Below are positions 3,319-11,675 of a stretch of DNA of 64,000 nucleotides, in pieces. This stretch comes from Modestobacter roseus. GTDB lineage: Bacteria; Actinomycetota; Actinomycetes; Mycobacteriales; Geodermatophilaceae. Numbering within the stretch: position 1 is the stretch's first letter; each line of letters begins with the position of its first letter. The stretch covers positions 3,720,001 to 3,784,000 of the forward strand of contig NZ_VLKF01000001.1 of the NCBI RefSeq assembly GCF_007994135.1, written 5' to 3'. Both the position numbers and the translations under genes were made by a program. The notes under the pieces were generated by a model. That model worked only from the letters and a program-made list of their open reading frames with translations, did not search any database and was not told the DNA's origin.

Positions 3319-6032
<2,714 letters not shown>

Positions 6033-6036
<4 letters not shown>

Positions 6037-6665
6037 CCCCGCTCCAGGGCGGCGAGCAGCTCGCGGGTGGCGGCGGCCGGGTCGGCGGCGGCGGAGACGG
6101 CGCCCACGACGGCGACCCCGGCCGCACCGGCGGCCAGCAGCGCGGGCACCCGCGCGGCGGTCACCCCGCCGATCGCGATCACCGGGACGTCGACGGCGGC
6201 GGCGACCGCGGCGATGCCCGACGGGCCCAGCGCGTCGGGCAGCCCGGTCTTCGTGGTGGTCGGCCAGGCGGGGCCGACGCCGAGGTAGTCGGCGCCCTCG
6301 GCGACCAGCTGCCGCGCCAGCTCCGGGTCGCGGCAGGTGCCGCCGAGCAGGTGCGCGGGGCCGGCGACCCGGCGGGCGGCGGCCAGCGGCAGGTCACCGG
6401 CGCCCAGGTGGGTGCCGTCGGCGCCGACGGCCAGGGCGACGTCGACCCGGTCGTTGACCAGGCAGGTCGCCCCGGCGGGGGCGCAGATCGCCACCACCGC
6501 GGCGGCGAAGTCGTGCAGCTCCCGGTCGGTGCCGCCCTTGGCGCGCACCTGCACCACCGGTGCCCCGGCGTCGACCGCGGCCTCGACCGCGGCCAGCGCC
6601 GCCGCCCCGCCGCGGGCGTCGGTGAGCACGTGCAGCCGCCCCATGGGCATGACCGGCAGGGTCAC
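6033..6665 (-). CDS. thiE: thiamine phosphate synthase ThiE
   Basis: About 210 residues of the ThiE barrel. QVRAKG, the pyrophosphate-Mg motif LVNDRVDVALAVGADGTHLG, the phosphate loop GVGPAWPTTTKTG and AIGGV are all present, so this is the canonical enzyme joining HMP-pyrophosphate and thiazole phosphate. The GTG at 6665 is chosen because it overlaps the cytX stop as GTGA, the pattern seen at the thiO, thiS and ThiE/TenI-like starts in this operon. ATG codons at 6650 and 6644 are alternatives. It lies between cytX and thiO in the riboswitch-controlled operon. Confidence 0.95.
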
Positions 6666-7996
6666 GACCGGCGCCCCCGCACCAGCGCCGGGGCCCGCAC
6701 CACCAGGGTGAGCAGCACCGCCACCGCCAGGCTGACCAGCGACGCCGACCAGCCGTTCGCCGGGTCGATGCCCAGGTCGGTCTGCCGCTCGGTCCACCAC
6801 GACGTCCAGCCGGCGCCCGGGCCGGCGAAGTACGTGGGCAGGGTGAGCTGGTAGGCGACGAAGCCGGCCACCCAGGGCAGCAGCAGCTCCAGCCGGGCCG
6901 GCGCGGTGTCGGACGTGTCCCAGGTGCCGCGGGGCAGCAGCCAGTAGGCCACCAGGAACACCCCGGCCAGCGGCACGAACACCGCGCCGATCAGGAAGAG
7001 GAACGGCTCGTAGGCGGCGATGTCGAACGTCAGCGCCAGCAGGGTGGCCACCGCGCCGACGACCAGCACGAGCACCCGCCGGTCGGCCCGCGCGACGACG
7101 TTCTGCGCCGACACCGCGGTGGAGTAGAGGTTGGCGAACGCCTCGTCCAGCTCGACGACCACCAGCAGCAGCACCGCCAGCGCGCCCAGCGGCACGACCA
7201 GCAGCGCGTCGATGACGTCCAGCCCGGCGCTGCCGTAGGCGGCCAGCGCCAGCACACCGAGGGTGAACATCACGACCGTGGCGACGCCGTACCCGACGCT
7301 CGCGCCGACGCCGGCGGCCCGGCTGCTGCGCACGTGCCGGCTGTAGTCGGCGGCCAGCGGGATCCAGGAGACCGGGAGCGCGATCACGATGTCCGCGGCG
7401 GTCCAGAAGGAGCTGGCGCTGCCCTCGGTGAGCTCGGGCAGCGGCTCGCGCAGCACCTGCACGTACAGGTAGACCAGCGCGGCCAGCGCCGCCCACACCG
7501 CGTAGCGGGCCAGCACCCGGACGACGCCGAGCGGCCGCAGCGCCATCGCGGTGGCCAGCACCCCGGCGCCGAGGACGAAGGGCCAGCGCGGGGCGTCGAG
7601 CACCCGGGAGGCGGCCTCGGCGATGATCACGATCTCGAAGGTGGCCCAGCCGACGCACTGCACGAGGTTCAGCGCCGTCGGCAGGTAGGAGCTGTGCCGG
7701 CCGAGCAGGCCGCGCAGCAGCACCATCGCCGGCACCTGCTCGCGGGCGCCGGCCGCGGCGGTGGCGCCCAGCAGCGCCGCGCCGATGACGGCGCCGACGA
7801 CGATGGCGCCGATGGTCACCCACAGCGAGCGGCCGGGCATGACCACGTAGACCGCGGCGACCGGCAGCAGCAGGCTGATCCCGAGGTTGCCCCACAGGCC
7901 CAGCGAGTCGCGCAGGCCGAGGGTGCGTGGGGGCGCCTCGGTGAGGGTGAGGGGGGCGTCCGCGGCCACGGGGGACGGACGGGTGGGGGTGCTCAT
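6662..7996 (-). CDS. cytX: CytX-type NCS1 transporter, likely hydroxymethylpyrimidine importer
   Basis: A 444-residue membrane protein with about 12 hydrophobic helices. The N-terminal signature APPRTLGLRDSLGLWGN is characteristic of the CytX branch of NCS1 permeases, which is linked to thiamine genes and predicted to import HMP. It is the first gene after the TPP riboswitch. The AGGGAG ribosome site before its ATG is part of the closing helix of that riboswitch, so TPP binding probably blocks translation of cytX and, through the coupled overlaps, of the whole operon. The substrate is inferred from context and family, not from residues. Confidence 0.92.
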   Translation of the reverse strand: MSTPTRPSPVAADAPLTLTEAPPRTLGLRDSLGLWGNLGISLLLPVAAVYVVMPGRSLWVTIGAIVVGAVIGAALLGATAAAGAREQVPAMVLLRGLLGRHSSYLPTALNLVQCVGWATFEIVIIAEAASRVLDAPRWPFVLGAGVLATAMALRPLGVVRVLARYAVWAALAALVYLYVQVLREPLPELTEGSASSFWTAADIVIALPVSWIPLAADYSRHVRSSRAAGVGASVGYGVATVVMFTLGVLALAAYGSAGLDVIDALLVVPLGALAVLLLVVVELDEAFANLYSTAVSAQNVVARADRRVLVLVVGAVATLLALTFDIAAYEPFLFLIGAVFVPLAGVFLVAYWLLPRGTWDTSDTAPARLELLLPWVAGFVAYQLTLPTYFAGPGAGWTSWWTERQTDLGIDPANGWSASLVSLAVAVLLTLVVRAPALVRGRRS

Positions 7997-8005
7997 CAGG
8001 TGTCG

Positions 8006-8090
8006 CTCCCTACGCCGGCATTACCCGGTCAGGTTCCAGCGGTCGGCGACGCTCGGTCGCCCTCTCAGCCCGGTTCCGCCCGAGCTCCCG
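8006..8090 (-). ncRNA. TPP riboswitch (THI element)
   Basis: Read on the minus strand, the leader contains GGGCTGAGAGGGCGACC and, further on, AACCTGACCGGGTAATGCC followed by GGCGTAGGGAG. These match the conserved halves of the thiamine-pyrophosphate riboswitch (CUGAGA, ACCUGA, GGAUAAUGCCAGCGUAGGGA). The final AGGGAG is both the 3' strand of the closing helix and the ribosome site of cytX eight bases further on, so the mechanism is likely sequestration of translation initiation. The downstream operon is entirely thiamine genes. Confidence 0.95.
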
Positions 8091-8197
8091 CACATGGCAT
8101 CGGCCATGACGCCCGACACAGTAGGCCACCGGCGGACGGCGGCCCACCGCCGGGGAACCGCGACGTCCGGAACCCGGCTGCGGCGGACCGGCCTGGC

Positions 8198-8203
8198 TAG
8201 AGT
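8198..8203 (+). promoter_or_regulatory. -10 element for a leaderless tenA mRNA
   Basis: TAGAGT is followed by seven bases and then the GTG start of the first TenA gene. This is the geometry of leaderless transcripts in actinobacteria, and no ribosome site is present. The rest of the divergent gap shows no second TPP riboswitch facing right. Confidence 0.5.
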
Positions 8204-8210
8204 CCCGGCC

Positions 8211-8807
8211 GTGCCGGTCGACGAGCTCCTCTCCCGATCCCCCGACGCCTGGCGGGAAGCCACCGCCCACCCGTTCCTGACCGGGGTGCGCGAGGGCACC
8301 GTGCCGGTCGCGGCGTTCGACACCTGGCTGGTGCAGGACGCCCGGTTCGTCGCCGACCTGCTGCGCTTCCAGGCCCGGCTGCTGGCCCGGGCGCCCCGGC
8401 CGGCGCAGGCGGTGCTGGCCGGTGGCCTGGTCGCGCTGGTCGAGGAGCTGGCCTGGTTCGAGCAGCTGGCCGCCGCCCGCGGCCTGGACCTCGCCGCGCC
8501 CGCGCTGCCGGCCACCACCGGGTACGCCGAGCTGCTGGCCCGGTTGGACGACGCCGACGTCCCGACCGGGCTCACCGCGCTGTGGACGATCGAGCGCACC
8601 TACCTGGACGCCTGGTCGGGCGCGCTGCCCGGGGCGCCGCAGTACCGGGAGTTCGTCGAGCACTGGACCGTGCCGGGCTTCGCCGGGTACGTGGCCGGGC
8701 TCGCCGCGGCCGCCGACGCGTTCCCGCCCGCCGACCCGGACGCCGTCTTCGCCGAGGTGGTCGCGGCGGAGATCGTCTTCTGGGACATGGCGATGGGCGC
8801 CGCGTGA
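8211..8807 (+). CDS. TenA-family protein, Cys-less (TenA_E-like)
   Basis: A 198-residue all-helical TenA/thiaminase II-like protein. The conserved Asp block LVQDARFVADLL, YREFVEHW and the terminal Glu in AAEIVFWDMA are present. Where classical TenA has a catalytic Cys, this protein has TIERTYLDAW, with Glu in the aligned place. That is the hallmark of the TenA_E class, linked to salvage of pyrimidine breakdown products of thiamine. The GTG start has a leaderless-type promoter. The stop overlaps the next TenA gene as GTGA, so the two forms are made together. The reaction is inferred. Confidence 0.85.
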   Translation: MPVDELLSRSPDAWREATAHPFLTGVREGTVPVAAFDTWLVQDARFVADLLRFQARLLARAPRPAQAVLAGGLVALVEELAWFEQLAAARGLDLAAPALPATTGYAELLARLDDADVPTGLTALWTIERTYLDAWSGALPGAPQYREFVEHWTVPGFAGYVAGLAAAADAFPPADPDAVFAEVVAAEIVFWDMAMGAA

Positions 8808-9436
8808 GCGTCTCCAGCGACCTGTGGGCCGCCGACGCCGACCTCGTCGCGGCCGCGCTGGCGCACCCGTTCGTGCAGGGCATCGCCGACGGCACGCTGC
8901 CCCGGGAGCGGTTCGCCGGGTACGTCGCCCAGGACGCGTTCTTCCTCGACGCCTTCGCCCGGGCCTACCGGCTGGGCGCGGAGAGCAGCGGCGACGACGG
9001 GCTGCGGGCGGTGTTCACCGACCTGCGGGCGGGCGTGCAGGAGGAGCTGCGGCTGCACACCGGCTACGCGCAGCAGTGGGGGATCGACCTCGCCGACGTC
9101 CAGCCGCTACCGGCGACGACGGCCTACACCGGCTTCCTGCTCGACGCCGCCGGCCGGGGCGACGCCGCGCTGACCTGCGCGGCGATGACCCCGTGCATGC
9201 GGCTGTACGCCCACCTGGGCCAGCAGCTGGCCGGCCGGGCAGCCGGGCCGTACCGGGAGTGGGTGGACACCTACGCCGCCCCCGAGTTCGAGGAGCTGGC
9301 CGCCCGCCTGGAGCGGCTGCTCGACCAGCTGTGCGCCGACACGTCCGACCAACGGCTCGCCGCCGTGCGGTCCGCCTACTCGCGGGCGATGCAGCTGGAG
9401 GTCGGCTTCTTCGACGCGGCCTGGGCCGGTGCCTGA
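8804..9436 (+). CDS. tenA: TenA-family aminopyrimidine aminohydrolase / thiaminase II
   Basis: A 210-residue TenA with the expected residues: Asp in YVAQDAFFLDAF, the catalytic Cys in MTPCMRLYAHLG, YREWVDTYAAPEF and the late Glu in QLEVGFFDAAW. The Cys-type enzyme converts aminomethyl-aminopyrimidine from degraded thiamine to HMP, and can cleave thiamine. It starts at a GTG overlapping the Cys-less TenA and overlaps the ABC ATPase by eight bases. Its neighbour cytX could import the same pyrimidines, so the divergent block looks like salvage plus synthesis. Confidence 0.92.
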   Translation: MSVSSDLWAADADLVAAALAHPFVQGIADGTLPRERFAGYVAQDAFFLDAFARAYRLGAESSGDDGLRAVFTDLRAGVQEELRLHTGYAQQWGIDLADVQPLPATTAYTGFLLDAAGRGDAALTCAAMTPCMRLYAHLGQQLAGRAAGPYREWVDTYAAPEFEELAARLERLLDQLCADTSDQRLAAVRSAYSRAMQLEVGFFDAAWAGA

Positions 9437-10118
9437 CCCGGTCCTCCTCGAGGCGCACGACCTGCTGGTCGGCTACGCCACCGGGGAGCCGGTCTGCGCG
9501 CCGGTGAGCGTGGCGGTGGCGCCGGGCACCGCGCTGGGCCTGGTCGGGCCGAACGGGGCGGGCAAGTCGACGGTGCTGCAGACCCTGGTCGGGCTCCTCC
9601 CCGCGCTCGGCGGGACGGTGCGCTACGCCGGGCAGCCGGTCGACGAGCGCTCGGCGACCTTCCGCGCCGAGGTGGCGACCGTGCTCGACGAGGACGCGTT
9701 CTTCCCGGCGCTGACCGGCGTGGAGCACCTGCTGCTGGCCGCCCGCGGGCACGGGGTGGCCGAGGCCGAGGCCGTCGTCGCCCGGGAGGTCGAGGCATTC
9801 GGGCTGGCCGGGCGGGCCGAGGCGCTGCCCTCGGCGGTCTCCTCCGGTCAGCGGCGGCGGCTCGCACTGGCCGCGGCGCTCGTCCGGCCGGCCCGGATGC
9901 TGGTGCTCGACGAGCCCGAGCGGCGGCTGGACACCGGTATGCGCCGCCACCTGGCCGCCCGGCTGGCCGCCGAGGTCGAGGCCGGGGTCACGGTGGTCTT
10001 CGCCAGCCACGACCCGGAGTTCCTCCGGACGCTGGCCGACGCCGTGCTGGTCGTCGACGACGCCGACTGCCCGCTGGTCTCCCCGGACGACGCCGTCGCC
10101 GCGCTCTCCGAGGGCTGA
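9429..10118 (+). CDS. ABC transporter ATP-binding protein
   Basis: A 229-residue nucleotide-binding domain. Walker A GPNGAGKST lies near residue 40, the signature SSGQRRRLALAAAL near 140, Walker B MLVLDEPE follows, and the switch His is in SHDPEF. The Q-loop position reads VLDEDAFF, with Asp where Gln is usual. The small size and the overlap with tenA suggest cotranslation. The next gene encodes its likely membrane partner. It resembles ATPases of exporter-type systems rather than the thiamine importer ThiZ, so a thiamine role is suggested only by position. Confidence 0.88.
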   Translation: MPDPVLLEAHDLLVGYATGEPVCAPVSVAVAPGTALGLVGPNGAGKSTVLQTLVGLLPALGGTVRYAGQPVDERSATFRAEVATVLDEDAFFPALTGVEHLLLAARGHGVAEAEAVVAREVEAFGLAGRAEALPSAVSSGQRRRLALAAALVRPARMLVLDEPERRLDTGMRRHLAARLAAEVEAGVTVVFASHDPEFLRTLADAVLVVDDADCPLVSPDDAVAALSEG

Positions 10119-10121
10119 GCA

Positions 10122-11675
10122 CTGACCGTCGTCGCGGAGGGGCCCGCGCTGAGCGGGGCCGCCGTCCGCCGGGTCACCCGCCGGGCGACCGCCGCGCGGG
10201 CCGACACCAGCTGGGTCACCCTCGTCGGCGACGTCGTCGGCTGGCTGACCTCCCTCGGCATCCTCGTGGCGGTGGTCGGCGGCACCGTCTCCAGCCTGCG
10301 GGAGCAGATCGCCGCCCGGCCGGCGACCGGGACGGCGGTGCTGCCCGGTGCGGTCACCTCGCTGGTCGCCGCGGTGCTGGTGGTCGCCGGGCTGGCCTGG
10401 GTGCTGGCCCGGCTCGGCCCGGTGAGCGCGACCCCGGCGGCGGCCGCGTGGTGGCTGCCGCTGCCCGCCGACCGGCGCGGGCTGCTGCGCGGCGAGCTGG
10501 TCCGGGTGGTGCTGGTGTCGGCGACGGCGGCCGCGCTGGTCGTCGTCCCGGTGCTGCTCGCCGTGCCGGTCACCCCCGCGGCGGTGGACGTGCTGGTCGG
10601 GGTGGCGACCGCCGCCCTGCTCACCGCCGCCGGTGCCGGGCTGCTGGTGGTGCTCCAGGCGGCCGGGCGCGGACACCGGCTGCCGACCGTGGCGGGTGCG
10701 CTGGCGTGCGTCGCCGTGGTGGGCGCCGCGCTGACCGGGGCGGTGCTGGCCGCCGTCGACGCGGCGCCGGTCACCGGGTGGGCGGTGCAGCCGGCCGGGA
10801 CGCCGCTGGTGGGAGCCGCCGTCGTCGCCGCCGTGCTGGCCGTGCTCGCGGTGGTCGCCGCGGACCGCCGGCTGGACCGGCTGCGCGCCGGTGACCTGCG
10901 GGCCCGCGGGGAGATCGTGCAGTACGCGACCGCCTCGACGTTCTCCATGGACACCCGCGAGCTGGGCCGGGCGCTGGCCAGCTCCCCGCGGCCACCCCGG
11001 CGCGCGCGCCGGTGGCGGCGGGTGTCCGGTGCCCCGACCGCTGTGCTCGCCGCCGACCTCGCGGTGCTCACCCGCTCGCCGTGGCGCTGGGGGCAGCTGG
11101 CGGTGGGCGCGGCGCTGCCGGTGCTGGCCGCCCGCACGTCCGGACTGGGCGACCTGCCCGCGTTGGTCGCCGTGGCCGCCGTGCTGGGGTGGGCGCTGGC
11201 GGCGGTGGCGCTGGGCGAGCCCAGCCGGCGCGCGCAGGCCTCCCCGGCGCTGGACCGGGTGCTGCCGCTCTCGGCCGACGTCGTCGTCCGGCTGCGGGTG
11301 GTGGTGCCGCTGGTGGTGCTCGTCGGGGTGTGCGGGGTGTCCGGCGCGCTGATCGGCCAGGGCACCGGGGCGACGGCGGTGTGGGCCGGGCTGGGCGTCG
11401 CCGTCGCCCCGGCGTGGGCCGGTGCCGCGGTGCGCGGCGGGTACCGGCCGGAGCTGGACTGGTCGGGGCCGGTGGTGGCCACACCGATGGGCGCGGTGCC
11501 CACCGGGGTGGGGCAGACGCTGGTGCGCGGGCTCGACCTGGGCGTCGTCGGCACGGTGCCGTTCGGCCTCGCGCTGCTGGTCGGCACGCCGTCGGCGCTG
11601 TGGGTGCCGGCTCAGCTGGCCTGGGCGCTGGCGGTCGGCGCGCTCGCCGTCGGCACCGCCCGCCCGCGCGACTGA
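10122..11675 (+). CDS. ABC transporter permease, DUF6297-like
   Basis: A large membrane protein with about ten hydrophobic segments and a soluble arginine-rich loop in the middle (GRALASSPRPPRRARRWRR). The open frame begins just after the ATPase stop, but no ATG or GTG occurs until GTG 10266. The CTG at 10122, with GAGGG upstream, would include a coherent N-terminal amphipathic and membrane segment (VTLVGDVVGWLTSLGILVAV). I use it with low certainty; 10266 is the conservative start, giving 469 residues. It resembles actinobacterial permeases paired with a single small ATPase. The substrate is unknown. Confidence 0.72.
   Translation: MTVVAEGPALSGAAVRRVTRRATAARADTSWVTLVGDVVGWLTSLGILVAVVGGTVSSLREQIAARPATGTAVLPGAVTSLVAAVLVVAGLAWVLARLGPVSATPAAAAWWLPLPADRRGLLRGELVRVVLVSATAAALVVVPVLLAVPVTPAAVDVLVGVATAALLTAAGAGLLVVLQAAGRGHRLPTVAGALACVAVVGAALTGAVLAAVDAAPVTGWAVQPAGTPLVGAAVVAAVLAVLAVVAADRRLDRLRAGDLRARGEIVQYATASTFSMDTRELGRALASSPRPPRRARRWRRVSGAPTAVLAADLAVLTRSPWRWGQLAVGAALPVLAARTSGLGDLPALVAVAAVLGWALAAVALGEPSRRAQASPALDRVLPLSADVVVRLRVVVPLVVLVGVCGVSGALIGQGTGATAVWAGLGVAVAPAWAGAAVRGGYRPELDWSGPVVATPMGAVPTGVGQTLVRGLDLGVVGTVPFGLALLVGTPSALWVPAQLAWALAVGALAVGTARPRD

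Follow-up and report, generated by a model that had tools for sequence, protein, structure and literature searches.

Proteins of the TenA family include the TenA_C class, to which Bacillus subtilis TenA (thiaminase II / aminopyrimidine aminohydrolase) belongs, and the TenA_E class, which is defined by a hallmark glutamate found at Glu129 in the P. furiosus protein and at Glu140 in the A. thaliana protein (PMC5635689). In Bacillus, base-degraded thiamine is salvaged by ThiXYZ, YlmB, TenA and ThiD along the route FAMP to AmMP to HMP to HMP-PP. The presence of CytX in ThiC-less genomes was noted earlier (PMC5874261), and a marine bacterium with both TenA classes grows on AmMP and shows no growth on FAMP (PMC10470507). 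Both classes have also been described together in one actinobacterium. In the ecology of vitamin B1 it is an open question which bacteria recycle the breakdown products of thiamine and which importers they use; the identity of the FAMP and AmMP importers is likewise described as open (PMC10470507).

Here we analyse a 64,000-nucleotide stretch of DNA from the soil bacterium Modestobacter roseus (the window), in which two TenA genes are followed by an ABC transporter and lie divergently to a thiamine operon.

The locus and its genes

The two tenA genes share the bases GTGA at positions 8804–8807, and the 3′ end of tenA_C overlaps the ATPase gene by 8 bases (Table 1). Both overlaps had been described in a sequence-only reading of this DNA, which also named the ATPase and the DUF6297-like permease behind it; the family matches to TENA_THI-4 (PF03070), ABC_tran and PF19814 bear out these identities. 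The whole 4.5 Mb genome holds only these two TenA genes and this one DUF6297 gene. In the permease frame, the first common start codon lies at 10266, and residues conserved in 19 relatives (G12 to A27) precede it, so translation probably begins at the CTG at 10122.

On the minus strand, a TPP riboswitch heads the order cytX-thiE-thiO-thiS-thiG, with the ThiG match at genome positions 3723909–3724637. The best NCBIfam match of the cytX-like protein is TIGR02358, at 214 bits, below the curated cut-off of 309.85 bits; the gene has RF00059 just upstream and thi genes downstream, and this context marks it as a putative functional partner of the TenA pair. The second ThiE-like gene keeps its position after thiG in relatives.

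Table 1 Features of the TenA locus (positions within the window)
Feature	Position	Strand	Evidence or remark
tenA_E (TenA-1)	8211..8807	+	PF03070, 51 bits; without active-site Cys
tenA_C (TenA-2)	8804..9436	+	PF03070, 134 bits; with active-site Cys
ABC ATPase	9429..10118	+	PF00005 (ABC_tran), 94 bits; partner of DUF6297
DUF6297 membrane protein, probable ABC-2-like permease	10122..11675	+	PF19814, 105 bits
TAGAGT, likely -10 element of tenA_E	8198..8203	+	Comparison between species
TPP riboswitch heading the divergent cytX-thi operon	7990..8101	-	RF00059, 59.5 bits (gathering score 54.3)
cytX-like NCS1 permease, putative hydroxymethylpyrimidine importer	6662..7996	-	TIGR02358, E 2.9e-63 (below cut-off); PF02133
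thiE-thiO-(thiS)-thiG, genes for the thiazole branch and the coupling step	3885..6665	-	Gene order shared with homologues in relatives
Second ThiE-like gene	3319-3888	-	After thiG; ~41% identity to the first ThiE

Classes and conservation of the TenA pair

We aligned 51 TenA-1-like and 52 TenA-2-like proteins with the solved structures 1rtw, 2f2g and 1to9. The column of B. subtilis Cys135 holds Cys in 52/52 TenA-2-like proteins, and Ile, Val, Leu, Ala or Met in 51/51 TenA-1-like proteins, the residue in TenA-1 of the window being Ile127. A catalytic Cys in the second TenA only, as had been proposed, is thus what the alignment gives. The glutamate of TenA-1 had, however, been placed at the Cys site, and here the register differs: Glu128, invariant among the 51 TenA-1-like proteins, falls one residue after the Cys135 column, and a profile-profile alignment returns the same register. 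Glu as a one-for-one substitute for Cys was rejected on this ground. The Glu128 column does coincide with P. furiosus Glu129 and A. thaliana Glu140, and TenA-1 also carries Glu187.

Aligned to B. subtilis TenA, TenA-2 has the active-site Cys131 together with Asp44, Tyr108, Tyr135 and Glu199; the equivalents of B. subtilis Cys135, Asp44, Tyr112 and Glu205 are all present, and that of Tyr163 is Tyr157. Against the NCBIfam model TIGR04306 (salvage_TenA), it scores 125.4 bits over positions 8–206 of 208, narrowly under the cut-off of 130. Pyrimidine-site residues are kept in both proteins. The predicted structure of TenA-1 (pLDDT 97.3) is closest to 2f2g (Z 28.6) and 1rtw (Z 27.8), both TenA_E. 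In the tree, one branch splits the TenA_E rows from the TenA_C rows with support of 100/100, while the attachment of 1rtw and the distant E rows is less certain. Hallmark Glu128, Cys131 and the tree agree and, on these sequence criteria, TenA-1 is a TenA_E protein and TenA-2 a TenA_C protein, as the sequence-only reading had assigned them.

The TenA_E-TenA_C pair is translationally coupled and strongly conserved. A full TenA_E occurs in 55 of 112 Geodermatophilaceae genomes and is adjoined by TenA_C in all 55. In a collection of 84,980 species, the tandem is found in 64 of 80 named loci, with cases in Asanoa, Virgisporangium, Nocardioides, Frankiales and Rubrobacter, the last of which belongs to another class. 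Of 106 pairs, among which some genomes appear twice, 88 share the 4-base overlap, and the reverse order, TenA_C first, appears at two loci (L153 and L161). Most solitary TenA_E cases among the 80 loci are from Mycobacterium; at 12 such loci in Mycobacterium and Mycolicibacterium, no thi gene was recognised nearby. At two loci from other families (L154 and L156), a different TenA_E clade is paired with a canonical TenA_C, which suggests that such pairs may have more than one origin.

Downstream of the pair, many Blastococcus and Geodermatophilus genomes carry ThiM-ThiE-ThiD, or ThiD, and Rubrobacter has either an NMT1/THI5-type ABC importer with ThiD and ThiM, or an SSF symporter. Three Rubrobacter loci (L148, L149, L160) have, close to the TenA_E locus, an extra TenA_C that resembles the B. 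subtilis type (PCYWIY) and is distinct from the tandem PCMRLY type. Two Rubrobacteraceae loci (L152, at 7653–10715, and L159) have, immediately after the TenA pair, genes for E1 alpha, E1 beta and E2 subunits like those of pyruvate/acetoin dehydrogenase; these dehydrogenase-like enzymes are thiamine diphosphate users, and L152 has a TPP riboswitch just before tenA_E.

Thiamine genes, promoter and proposed role

One family model found no ThiC match in the window genome; the same model matched 13 of 14 control genomes. ThiC is present in only 10 of the 112 Geodermatophilaceae genomes. YkoE, the thiamine S-component of YkoEDC (PMC5037267), was not found in the window genome either, and sister species do have it. 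The genome has ThiG, ThiO, ThiE, ThiM, ThiD and the divergent CytX, with ThiM-ThiE-ThiD lying ~120 kb from the locus. Since the thiazole genes are present, and ThiC and YkoE are absent, the cell is able to make thiazole but, it seems, not HMP, and the strain is a probable pyrimidine auxotroph, although HMP may be reached through an alternative, THI5-like enzyme. Four other Modestobacter genomes (G085, G087, G088, G092) are without TenA, ThiC and a strong ThiG match and so, unlike the window genome, are probably full thiamine auxotrophs. The link between TenA and ThiC is one of pathway logic, not of co-variation, because the presence of ThiC does not differ between genomes that have TenA (4/55) and those that lack it (6/57).

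This gene content, lacking ThiC and YkoE and retaining ThiG, ThiO, ThiE, ThiM, ThiD and CytX, points to pyrimidine salvage as the likely role of the pair. We hold it to be highly probable that TenA_E and TenA_C form a conserved two-enzyme unit for salvage of the pyrimidine half of thiamine, from which the ATPase-DUF6297 transporter is separate. We infer substrates and reaction order from the genes at hand: TenA_E would deformylate FAMP to AmMP, TenA_C would turn AmMP into HMP, CytX would probably import HMP or related pyrimidines, HMP would be phosphorylated by ThiD, and ThiE would join the pyrimidine to thiazole phosphate, which would come from ThiO/ThiS/ThiG or from ThiM-dependent salvage. 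With ThiC missing, TenA salvage would probably be the only pyrimidine source short of whole-thiamine import. The division of work between the two enzymes may not be clean, as plant TenA_E reportedly also hydrolyses AmMP. Growth of the marine bacterium with both TenA classes on AmMP and not on FAMP (PMC10470507) likewise counts against the proposed role. A bolder extension, that the pair has co-evolved to hand aminopyrimidine between its active sites and that the importers swapped between loci (CytX, the NMT1/THI5-type ABC system, the SSF symporter) carry FAMP and AmMP, is in our judgement rather doubtful.

The rightward operon had been described as lacking a riboswitch, and none was found on the plus strand of the window, even with permissive filters. 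A sigma-70 consensus scan returned nothing; the likely -10 element emerged when loci of different species were compared. TAGAGT stands 13 nt before the GTG start of tenA_E, all the divergently arranged loci of Geodermatophilaceae that were read have TAnnnT at -12 to -14, and 29 of 37 loci overall have one at -10 to -16. Because the element lies only 12–14 nt from the start codon, there is no space for a leader RNA, and the tenA transcript is likely to be leaderless. Elsewhere, the pair sits directly behind a TPP riboswitch in three Rubrobacteraceae loci (L145, L147, L152) and inside an operon headed by one in M. lapidis and a Nocardioides. TPP riboswitches normally turn genes off when thiamine is plentiful. 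The earlier suggestion that the operon is expressed under plentiful thiamine thus finds no support, and expression opposite to that of the riboswitch operon was rejected, given that TPP riboswitches control the pair in relatives. For the pair in the window, the best reading is expression that does not depend on thiamine, as opposed to induction by its plenty.

Alternative readings and known systems

The sequence-only reading had joined all four genes in a fixed order, as a dedicated pathway for thiamine breakdown products with an exporter-like ABC transporter. Gene context upholds the part of this that concerns the TenA pair. The transporter is another matter: across genomes only the order of the two TenA genes is constant, and a fixed four-gene order was rejected, since ATPase-DUF6297 directly follows tenA_C in only seven genomes, that of the window and six more from Modestobacter. 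In these seven, the ATPase gene overlaps or abuts tenA_C, so that the two may be cotranscribed, and in the TenA-less Modestobacter loci that were read, DUF6297 stands at the same locus beside YkoCDE, FabG or thiG-thiO; both facts would suit a pathway in which the transporter exports or imports a breakdown product handled by the TenA pair. Against it, DUF6297 occurs in 26 of 55 family genomes with TenA and in 22 of 57 without (Fisher p 0.45). The genus tells the same story, with 11 genomes holding both, five TenA only and seven DUF6297 only; four near-complete genomes with the TenA pair gave no DUF6297 match, and in two further ones the thi operon separates the transporter from the pair. DUF6297 and TenA are also apart in Geodermatophilus, in Blastococcus and in other families; elsewhere in the class, DUF6297 comes with its own ATPase, and the flanks that were read contain no TenA. 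That ATPase adjoins DUF6297 in most loci of the class. We therefore give a single four-gene pathway little credence: ATPase-DUF6297 is probably a separate transporter that neighbours the pair in some Modestobacter. Overlapping adjacent genes in one species can mislead, and here comparison with relatives removes the transporter from the unit. An exporter-like nature of the DUF6297 permease is possible, as its model is of middling confidence (mean pLDDT 71) and its likeness to ABC-2 exporters is loose, the scores against Pdr5 (Z 12.1 at 7.9 Å) and a mycobacterial efflux pump (Z 8.4) being no higher than the noise expected for helical bundles. No Foldseek match had an E value below 0.1, and a literature search on DUF6297 returned no paper. 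In sister Modestobacter, TPP riboswitches precede ykoEDC, convergent with or near ATPase-DUF6297 (L125 4303–4405, L044 1951–2053, L128 10832–10934, L139 4229–4331).

Two further readings concern the pair itself. It might serve mainly to detoxify what thiamine breaks down into and recycle only incidentally, a role that has reportedly been proposed for plant TenA_E and would fit the thiamine-independent look of the promoter in the window. According to PMC5635689, TenA_E is also more frequent where thiamine degrades quickly. This is improbable in our view, given a genome without ThiC, a pair that sits with genes for HMP use and import, and the TPP riboswitches that control it in relatives. Nor do we think it likely that TenA_E and TenA_C build a mixed oligomer in which one subunit is structural or regulatory. 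Tight coupling and strict pairing of the genes would agree with such an assembly, as would the separate clade that the tandem TenA_C (PCMRLY) forms among TenA_C proteins, a split seen even inside one Rubrobacter genome; pyrimidine-site residues conserved in both proteins and a TenA_E that stands alone in Mycobacterium and others speak against it. A salvage unit of two enzymes remains our preferred reading. With no ThiC match in 102 of its 112 genomes and the two-TenA unit in about half of them, the family offers a clean test system for such recycling, along with candidate importers.

Compared with described systems, the locus is a gene cluster of a familiar kind, and both of its TenA enzyme classes are known. 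TenA-1 shares the fold of Arabidopsis At3g16990 (2f2g) and P. furiosus PF1337 (1rtw) at 27–31% identity and, like them, has the hallmark Glu and no Cys; what differs is that the Geodermatophilaceae TenA_E is always partnered by TenA_C. TenA-2 shares its active-site residues with B. subtilis TenA, but the latter has PCYWLY where the tandem protein has PCMRLY and belongs to a separate clade. With the Bacillus salvage of base-degraded thiamine, the locus would share the logic of the pathway, whereas TenA_E takes the place of YlmB and CytX is the likely importer; Rubrobacter relatives of the pair do have a ThiXYZ-like importer. As in the CytX-thiamine clusters of ThiC-less bacteria (PMC5874261), CytX lies beside thi genes in a genome with no ThiC, and the window adds the divergent TenA_E-TenA_C pair. 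The literature describes one actinobacterium with both TenA classes; other Rubrobacter loci read here carry the two genes as a tandem.
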